A stretch of DNA of 43,342 nucleotides from Clostridiales bacterium (GTDB taxonomy: Bacteria; Bacillota; Clostridia; Christensenellales; Borkfalkiaceae), in assembly GCA_015069505.1 (NCBI GenBank), contig SVIL01000004.1:1-43342 (forward strand), written 5' to 3'. Of this stretch, positions 13,865-31,844 are shown piece by piece. The position numbers and the translations under genes were made by a program. The notes below the pieces were generated by a model. It had not been told where the DNA came from, searched no databases, and saw nothing but the letters and a program-made list of their open reading frames with translations. Positions within the stretch are counted from its first letter, which is position 1. Each line of letters begins with the position of its first letter.

Positions 13865-13891
13865 ATATAGTATTATCATATAACTAAAAGG

Positions 13892-13934
13892 CTCTGAATA
13901 AATTTGTACTAAAACATTTATTCGGAGTTTTTTT
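13892..13934 (+). terminator. Terminator-like hairpin incorporating the Shine-Dalgarno of the next gene
   Basis: CTCTGAATAAAT-(12 nt)-ATTTATTCGGAG-TTTTTTT directly abutting ATG 13935. Confidence 0.75.
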
Positions 13935-15389
13935 ATGCGTAAATTAAGTTTTGTGTTGTGCGTAGTACTTTGTCTATCCGTTTTTACCAACGTTTCTTGT
14001 AAAAGAAACGAGGATAAGATAACATTTTACGACATTGAGTTTACTTTATCGGATGATTACGTTTTAAGCGGTAGAGAGTGCGTAACCTTTTATAACGGCA
14101 CGGACAAGGCGTTTGAGGAACTTAAATTCAACATCTTTGGCAATGCGTTTAGAAAGGGTGCGACTTTCAACCCCGTATCCACCCAGTATCAAATATCTGC
14201 CTACCCCAACGGGCTTTCGTACGGTGAGATGAGCGTCAGCGAGGTGCTTGTGGGTGAGCGAAATTTAGAGTTTAATATTTGCGGTGTGGATAAAAATATT
14301 CTATCCGTAAAACTGCCTGAAGTGGTTTTCCCGAACGAGAGCGTGTGCGTTGAGATTAGTTATACCCTTAAACTTGCAAACGTGGTTGCAAGAACGGGGT
14401 ATAACGACAGCACTATAAACTTAGCCTCTTTTTACCCTATACTTTGCGGGATAGACGAGAACGGGTTTTACGAGTGCGTTTATTATTCGACGGGCGACCC
14501 GTTTTTTAGCGACGTTGCCGATTATAGGGTCACCGCTACCGTAAACGAAAATTTAGTTATTGCGTCTGCGGGGAAGGTGGAAAGTAGCGTTGTAAAAGAC
14601 CAAAAAATAACTTCTACTTATTCTTTAAAAAAGGCACGGTCGTTCGCAATGGTACTGTCAAGTGGGTTTGAGTGCGTTACCTCAACAGAAACGGGTACGG
14701 AAATCAACTATTATTACTATGACGATTCTTTTCCGCAAGAAAGCCTTGATTACGCTATAAAGAGCGTAAGACTGTTTGAAGATAAGTTTGGGGATTATCC
14801 GTACCCCACTTATACGGTGGTGCAGACCGAGTTCGTGCAAGGGGGTATGGAATTTCCGACCTTGGTTATGATAAGCGACGAACTTGAAAAAGATAGTTAC
14901 GGCGAGGTTATCGTACACGAAACGGCACATCAATGGTGGCAAAGCGTGGTCGGGAACAACGAGATTGAGTTTGGGTTTTTAGACGAGGGGTTAGCCGAGT
15001 ATTCGGTGGTCGTGTTTTACGAAAATTATCCCGAGTACGGCTTGACGAGAGAGAAGATGATAAAGTCCTCAGAGGATACGTATAAGGTGTTTTGCTCGGT
15101 TTACGATAAACTTTTCGGCTCTGTTAATACCGTTATGCTTAGACCGATAAAAGACTTTACCAGCGAATACGAGTACGTAAACCTATCATACGTTAAGCCG
15201 TGCATTATGTACGACTATTTAAGGCGGACGGTAGGGGATAAGACCTTTTTCGGCGGGCTAAAAAAGTACTATACCGACTACGCGTTTTCTAACGCTAAGC
15301 CCGACGATTTGGTAGGTACCTTTGAAAAGTTAGGGGCGGGCACTAACGGATTTTTTGATAGTTTTTTCACGGGGAAGGTCATAATCTAA
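13935..15389 (+). CDS. M1-family metallopeptidase, lipoprotein
   Basis: Lipobox-like VFTNVSC; HEXXH (VHETAHQWWQ) and downstream GFLDEGLAEY glutamate; GGMEFPTLVM. Confidence 0.9.
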   Translation: MRKLSFVLCVVLCLSVFTNVSCKRNEDKITFYDIEFTLSDDYVLSGRECVTFYNGTDKAFEELKFNIFGNAFRKGATFNPVSTQYQISAYPNGLSYGEMSVSEVLVGERNLEFNICGVDKNILSVKLPEVVFPNESVCVEISYTLKLANVVARTGYNDSTINLASFYPILCGIDENGFYECVYYSTGDPFFSDVADYRVTATVNENLVIASAGKVESSVVKDQKITSTYSLKKARSFAMVLSSGFECVTSTETGTEINYYYYDDSFPQESLDYAIKSVRLFEDKFGDYPYPTYTVVQTEFVQGGMEFPTLVMISDELEKDSYGEVIVHETAHQWWQSVVGNNEIEFGFLDEGLAEYSVVVFYENYPEYGLTREKMIKSSEDTYKVFCSVYDKLFGSVNTVMLRPIKDFTSEYEYVNLSYVKPCIMYDYLRRTVGDKTFFGGLKKYYTDYAFSNAKPDDLVGTFEKLGAGTNGFFDSFFTGKVII

Positions 15390-30777: not shown

Positions 30778-30807
30778 TTGACGAAAAGGATAGGGGTGTG
30801 GTATTAT
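30778..30807 (+). promoter_or_regulatory. Sigma-A promoter upstream of the THF riboswitch
   Basis: TTGACG, 18 bp, TATTAT. Confidence 0.75.
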
Positions 30808-30815
30808 TTATAAAA

Positions 30816-30908
30816 ATAGAGTAGTAAAGATGCGTCAAGTGTTGCAAAATGGGATGTCGTTTGCAAACGAAAGGCTTTTGTCCTGCGGTATCTTTACGCG
30901 TCCGCTAT
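30816..30908 (+). ncRNA. THF (tetrahydrofolate) riboswitch, folT class
   Basis: Conserved blocks in order: GAGTAG, GCGTCAAGTG, AATGGGATGTCG, ACGAA, GCGGT, GCGTCCGCT. Helices ATAG/CTAT, TAAAGAT/ATCTTTA and TTGCAAA/TTTGCAA. Upstream of a FolT-like gene. Confidence 0.93.
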
Positions 30909-30948
30909 AAATGGTCTTCGCTTTTTTGCGTATTCCAAACTATATCGG

Positions 30949-30978
30949 TCTCTCTAAAATTAAAAGGGAGATTTTTTT
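30949..30978 (+). promoter_or_regulatory. Riboswitch expression platform: terminator/SD-sequestering hairpin abutting the ATG
   Basis: TCTCTCT-AAAATTAAA-AGGGAGA-TTTTTTT-ATG. Confidence 0.75.
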
Positions 30979-31638
30979 ATGCTTAATCTACTTAAACCCG
31001 TGGCGTTTGATTTCGTCGCTATCTTTGGCAACGTGGTGGACAAATGGTATTTTTACCTTGCACTAATCGTTTTTTTGGCTTTGCTAACCGTTTACTGCTT
31101 GGTTAAAAAACCCGAGTGTAACGCACTAACCAGTACGCAAAAGTTGGTATATACCGCAATACTGTCCGCACTATGCTTTATGGCAAACTATTTTACCATA
31201 AAGGTAAGCGACTTGTGGCAAATATCCTTAGTCTCTTGCGTAGGCTTTATCGCAGGCTACCTTTTGGGTGGTGGATACGGGTTTGCGGCGGCGTTTATAG
31301 GCGACTTGATTTGTGGAATAGTTGCACCCTTTGGTGCGTATAACCCCATTATAGGCATGGGTACGGGGCTATTTGGTTTCGTTCCCGGCGTTATATTTAG
31401 CCATTTTAGGAACGGGAATAAATACGTTAAGGTGATAATCTCTTTTGCGATATGCTTTTTGTTGAATTCGTTTGTCGTAAACACCTTGGGTTTATCGCTT
31501 ATGTACGGTATGAGTTTTGAGAGCCTTTTGGTGCTTTTGCCACTTAAATTAGCAACTACGGCTGTGAATATGGTCATTTGTATTTTGGCAGTGACTTTCT
31601 TGCCCAAAATATTGCCAAGAAGTAAATTTTTTATATAG
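30979..31638 (+). CDS. folT: ECF transporter S component, FolT-like (folate)
   Basis: LTSTQKLVYTAILSALCFMANYFTIKVSDLWQISLVSCVGFIAGYLLGGGYGFAAAFIGDLICGIVAPFGAYNPIIGMGTGLFGFVPG, plus the THF riboswitch upstream. Confidence 0.88.
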   Translation: MLNLLKPVAFDFVAIFGNVVDKWYFYLALIVFLALLTVYCLVKKPECNALTSTQKLVYTAILSALCFMANYFTIKVSDLWQISLVSCVGFIAGYLLGGGYGFAAAFIGDLICGIVAPFGAYNPIIGMGTGLFGFVPGVIFSHFRNGNKYVKVIISFAICFLLNSFVVNTLGLSLMYGMSFESLLVLLPLKLATTAVNMVICILAVTFLPKILPRSKFFI

Positions 31639-31646
31639 GTGATTAA

Positions 31647-31844
31647 ATGAAGATATCTTTAAACCCCGATAAAGAAGCGGTAAAAATGCTTAAACAAGCG
31701 TTGAAAGAGAAAAACGGGTACTGCCCTTGCCGTAGAGAGATTATTGAGGACAATAAATGTATGTGCAAGGAATTTAGGGATCAAATTGCAGACCCTGAGT
31801 TTGAAGGGTTTTGCCATTGTATGCTTTACTATAAAGAAAAATAA
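31647..31844 (+). CDS. Ferredoxin-thioredoxin reductase catalytic-domain-like mini-protein (65 aa)
   Basis: GYCPCRREIIEDNKCMCKEFRDQ...GFCHCMLYYKE: CPC/CMCKEF/CHC pattern of the FTR beta subunit. Confidence 0.8.
   Translation: MKISLNPDKEAVKMLKQALKEKNGYCPCRREIIEDNKCMCKEFRDQIADPEFEGFCHCMLYYKEK

Follow-up and report, generated by a model that had tools for sequence, protein, structure and literature searches.

In THF-I riboswitches a pseudoknot is formed between L3 and J2/1, and the regulatory THF site sits within it (PMC9881143, PMC11477058). Dual attenuation of transcription and translation is an already described class of riboswitch output, as given in the accessible part of a survey by Barrick & Breaker (2007; PMC2258182). 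In the yxjA purine riboswitch, the expression platform is reported to compete with P1 of the aptamer during transcription (PMC9756952).

The window, a stretch of 43,342 nucleotides from a Clostridiales bacterium (contig SVIL01000004.1), carries a folate-sensing RNA switch ahead of a folate-importer gene. The switch is genuine and of a mostly known kind, with an unusually well-resolved switching mechanism. An initial annotation, made from the letters alone, had proposed a THF riboswitch whose platform combines a terminator with sequestration of the Shine-Dalgarno sequence (SD) upstream of folT, and the Rfam check bore out the THF riboswitch. The THF-I match scored 75.5 bits in cmscan, well above the gathering score of 36 (E = 1.1e-15), spanned the full model (1–99), and was the sole above-threshold Rfam match in the window as well as the single THF match genome-wide. 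The complement between L3 and J2/1 is present in the sequence, with one G-U pair. A promoter-like site just upstream places the predicted transcription start at about the first base of the aptamer. The coordinates of all features are collected in the table.

Table. Features of the folT leader in window coordinates.
Feature	Position	Strand	Basis or remark
Sigma-70-type promoter-like site, TTGACG-N18-TATTAT, extended TG	30778..30807	+	10/12 consensus matches; consensus match only
THF-I riboswitch aptamer (RF01831)	30815..30909	+	cmscan
P1 5' strand AUAG, partner 30905-30908 in ligand-bound form	30816..30819	+	Rfam consensus structure
UAGAG, 5' antiterminator half, pairs with CUCUA 30952-30956	30817..30821	+	Pair probability 0.93, transcript cut at 30958
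L3 GGAUG, pseudoknot partner of J2/1 CGUCC 30899-30903	30852..30856	+	Read from sequence
J2/1 pseudoknot strand and P1 3' strand CGUCCGCUAUA; 30902-30909 is the 3' antiterminator half	30899..30909	+	
UAUAUCGG, platform partner of 30902-30909	30941..30948	+	
UCUCUCU, terminator 5' arm / anti-SD arm	30949..30955	+	
AGGGAGA, hairpin 3' arm carrying Shine-Dalgarno GGGAG	30965..30971	+	Conserved in relatives
U7 tract directly before AUG	30972..30978	+	Sequence; U-rich tract conserved in relatives
folT-like ECF transporter S component (folate family)	30979..31638	+	TIGR04518, PF07155/PF12822, 5d3m chain C

The platform reads UCUCUCU, an A-rich loop, AGGGAGA, U7 and AUG, and the coordinates given for this arrangement in the initial annotation are exact in the window sequence. 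Its further claim, that the SD lies within the hairpin stem and the U-tract directly adjoins the start codon, was verified in the sequence and is conserved across relatives. Downstream of the aptamer there is a terminator-like hairpin with its U-tract, and the SD (GGGAG, 30966–30970) lies inside the 3' arm of this hairpin, 8 nt ahead of the AUG. The segment 30910–30978 folds at −15.8 kcal/mol (z = −3.3), a stability reached by 0 of 200 shuffles. The hairpin itself, with one G-U pair and a 9-nt A-rich loop, is of moderate stability (−8.7 kcal/mol) and remains the preferred fold of the leader at full length. It was not listed by the built-in terminator scan, because that scan permits only loops of 3–8 nt. 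That the hairpin hides the SD is well supported.

The gene that follows begins about 70 nt after the end of the aptamer. Its assignment as folT, also made in the initial annotation, is backed by a match above cut-off to TIGR04518 (FolT family; 72.5 bits, cut-off 60), by matches to PF07155/PF12822, and by a sequence match to a solved structure (5d3m chain C, ‘S-component for folate’, E 1e-4). About 50 residues of the protein precede the region covered by the family model (window 30979–31130). A search of genome contigs for loci related to the FolT protein returned no relatives. Directly after folT lies an ORF for a 65-residue cysteine-rich protein (31647–31844) with the motifs CPC, CMC and CHC, which has no Pfam or NCBIfam match. 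A FolT-like gene is located downstream in all 41 same-genus loci. Dihydropteroate synthase over the family cut-off was found in 0 of 41 genomes (this one and 40 of the same genus), which suggests folate auxotrophy. With no convincing dihydropteroate synthase in the sampled genus, the riboswitch therefore probably guards the cell's sole folate supply.

THF aptamers were present in 80 of 101 relatives, 303 of 398 genomes of the family and 153 of 245 genomes of the class, and the comparison set comprised about 160 aptamer-platform regions. A G-rich SD, a U-run of at least 4 and then the start codon were found in 40 of the 41 same-genus loci of the main type and, order-wide, in about 128 of 159. 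Within the window's genus the platform hardly varies and reads (A)UAUCGG(A)UCUCUCUA - variable loop - GGGAGA - U7 - AUG; the other genera sampled from the family and order have (GC)GGACCUCUC - variable loop - GGGAGG - U-rich - AUG. The hairpin arms co-vary (CCUCUC/GGGAGG, CCUUCU/AGGAGG, ACCACU/GGUGGU), with loop lengths between 3 and about 17 nt. THF platforms sampled beyond the order have a different appearance. A second THF riboswitch occurs in some genomes of the same genus (L032, L063 and L065; genomes G024, G031 and G043). Two of these, L063 and L065, and also L062, belong to a divergent type that has the GGACCUC platform and is followed by a FolT-like gene.

The initial annotation had noted that TAGAG of P1 is complementary to CTCTA of the terminator 5' arm and had called the resulting P1/antiterminator switch speculative, the pairing being only 5 bp. 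Both the positions and the complementarity are correct. The transcript was folded with RNAfold up to 30958, where the 5' arm of the hairpin has emerged and the 3' arm is not yet made; pseudoknot, ligand and kinetics lie outside the energies so obtained. In this unconstrained fold UAGAG (30817–30821) is predicted to pair with CUCUA (30952–30956) at a probability of 0.93 and CCG-UAUA (30902–30909) with UAUA-CGG (30941–30948; UAUAUCGG) at 0.99, and the probability of P1 is near zero. The antiterminator is the minimum free energy structure at −36.3 kcal/mol, against −29.1 kcal/mol with P1 forced, a penalty of 7.2 kcal/mol. When the 3' arm is included, P1 plus terminator (−37.8 kcal/mol) and antiterminator (−36.3 kcal/mol) are nearly balanced, and such near-balance of the two full states is what a co-transcriptional switch would be expected to need. 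The two antiterminator helices are nested and therefore make up one continuous alternative fold, of which the 5-bp helix is the outer half. The proposed pairing was thus one half of the predicted antiterminator, and the longer half had been missed. The second helix alongside, the value of 0.93 in the truncated fold and the better complementarity within the own genus described below strengthen the case for the switch.

Compensatory changes across homologues, named at the outset as a check, were found in the 3' half. Pairing of the tail GUCCG with the platform CGGAC is retained in 14 groups, nearly all of those compared, with changes across genera of the kind G-C/G-U/A-U and C-G/U-A/U-G/A-U. In one genus the tail AUCCAA is matched by a platform UUGG, and in several members of the order the tail GUCCGUUG is matched by the platform CAAUGGAC. 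Among 80 distinct tail-platform pairs, 82% of cells were paired, against 27–47% when slid by 1–3. The observed core score was attained by 0 of 1000 platform shuffles, a count that is inflated by the relatedness of the sequences and is not to be read as a probability. An antiterminator formed from aptamer strands and mutually exclusive with the terminator is indicated computationally, by both predicted fold and covariation.

Capture of the anti-SD arm was computed for 141 homologues and averaged 0.37 for the 5' P1 strand and 0.28 for the 3' P1 strand, with 0.15 and 0.03, respectively, in the shuffled-platform control. Part of the complementarity of the 5' half is automatic, because AGAG of the aptamer resembles an SD; this conserved, SD-like element would compete naturally for the anti-SD arm. 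In the window's genus, the 5' half (anti5) reaches −5.7 kcal/mol with its own platforms, compared with −3.9 kcal/mol with platforms of other genera, and the 3' half (anti3) −5.1 kcal/mol. In three other genera (g3, g8 and g9) the 3' half lies at −11.1 to −11.8 and the 5' half at −4.2 to −4.5 kcal/mol. Across genera, a gain in strength of one half thus goes with a loss in the other. The 3' helix of this genus contains a C-U mismatch and alone barely overlaps the terminator stem, so that switching here depends on the 5-bp half.

We consider it probable that the leader acts as a genetic OFF switch for folate import, in which THF causes P1 and the pseudoknot to hold their strands, the hairpin to form and folT to be turned off. 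Polymerase would make the THF-I aptamer first and then the anti-SD arm UAUAUCGGUCUCUCUA. Without THF, P1 and the L3-J2/1 pseudoknot would be unstable and the platform would capture both P1 strands, UAGAG with CUCUA and CCG-UAUA with UAUA-CGG. This bipartite antiterminator would occupy the 5' arm of the hairpin, giving read-through, a free SD and expression of folT. With THF bound, P1 and the pseudoknot would retain both strands and the anti-SD arm would be released to AGGGAGA; the resulting hairpin, adjoining U7 and AUG, could stop transcription just before the start codon and, should termination fail, would still mask the SD. The 3' half takes CGUCC, which is also the pseudoknot strand with the regulatory THF site, and THF should therefore withhold both halves together. 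In this scheme we infer that the ligand binds, that termination truly occurs, that translation is repressed and that the steps follow one another in this kinetic order.

The hairpin might instead do no more than hide the SD, with the U-tract serving as an unstructured spacer between SD and AUG and no termination taking place. The moderate strength of the hairpin is in keeping with this, as are the interruptions of the tract in several genera (e.g. TTTTTATT, TTATTTTT) and the occurrence in the genome of U6-7 before ATG at genes without an SD hairpin; for this last reason, a U-run before ATG was rejected as sole proof of termination. The genome-wide spacer statistics are pattern searches, in which the pattern GGRGRTTTTTTWTG was replaced, having left the seven T of the window's site unmatched. 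At about 128 of the 159 loci, however, the U-rich tract comes right after the hairpin, and the FMN riboswitches of the genus have the same hairpin-U-tract-ATG form. In the window, moreover, 4 of 4 ATGs preceded by at least 5 T have a stable upstream hairpin, whereas the spacers at most other starts are A-rich or mixed. We therefore regard purely translational control as unlikely.

Lower still is the probability that the terminator contains the SD only incidentally and that read-through mRNA is translated regardless of THF. The terminator form with U7 would fit this, and termination would act ahead of translation; on the other side, the SD in the 3' arm has a normal 8-nt spacing and is conserved in nearly all relatives, and in the complete leader no fold is more stable than the hairpin. 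That THF activates the gene, or leaves the hairpin uncontrolled, seems very improbable indeed. In RNAfold the full-length leader forms the terminator irrespective of P1, which would suit a leader that does not switch, but the conserved antiterminator uses exactly the strands of P1 and the pseudoknot, so that a ligand-stabilised P1 opposes an ON state, and repression of an importer gene by its product is the expected logic. The OFF switch acting on both termination and translation remains our preferred reading.

Related hairpins were observed elsewhere. The FMN riboswitch of the same genome (L163, 2282–2466) and most of the readable ones in genus relatives (L172–L201) show an SD-hairpin, a short U-tract and ATG, and the 5' strand of the FMN aptamer, GGGGCG, is a repeat of the 3' arm of its platform hairpin. 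At 13890–13934 of the window, a 12-bp hairpin includes the SD GGAG and runs into U7-ATG of the gene at 13935; no known aptamer precedes it. Strong SD-containing hairpins with U7-ATG and without an Rfam aptamer also precede spoIVA-like (L166/L170) and spoVT-like (L167) genes of the same genome. The idea that all riboswitches of this genome are dual was rejected, as a weak TPP match precedes a separate, ordinary terminator.

Expression platforms diverge quickly and are therefore rarely resolved by comparison. Here, about 140 homologues keep the platform sufficiently to show the antiterminator through compensatory change, with its strength moving between the P1 strands. We tentatively propose, with a confidence that falls somewhat short of even, that the bipartite antiterminator clamps the anti-SD arm from both sides with a strength shifted between genera, and that the fused terminator/SD/start hairpin is the standard output of vitamin-importer riboswitches (THF, FMN) in this order. 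The order is well suited to testing how such outputs evolve and whether termination and translation are both controlled by a hairpin that ends at the start codon.

The locus shares with THF-I (RF01831) the sequence and structure of the aptamer, the L3-J2/1 complement and a downstream folT. The Rfam model consists of the aptamer only, whereas here the aptamer is fused to a hairpin/SD/U-tract/AUG platform with a two-strand antiterminator. A literature search outside the main THF-I papers (Ames 2010, Trausch 2011) returned no description of dual platforms in THF riboswitches. The platform follows the logic given in the accessible part of the Barrick & Breaker survey (PMC2258182), whereby a terminator hairpin near the ORF carries the ribosome binding site on its 3' side; the classes treated there are other ones, whereas here it is the THF class, the arrangement is the rule within one order, and the U-tract touches the AUG. 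Competition between P1 and platform is shared with yxjA (PMC9756952), from which, judged by the accessible part of that report, this leader differs in the predicted capture of both P1 strands. The same-genus FMN riboswitches are alike in having the SD in the hairpin 3' arm, U5-7, ATG and an ECF S component downstream, and differ in aptamer and ligand. Dual attenuation is thus of a known kind; what may be new is the detail of the bipartite strand exchange.
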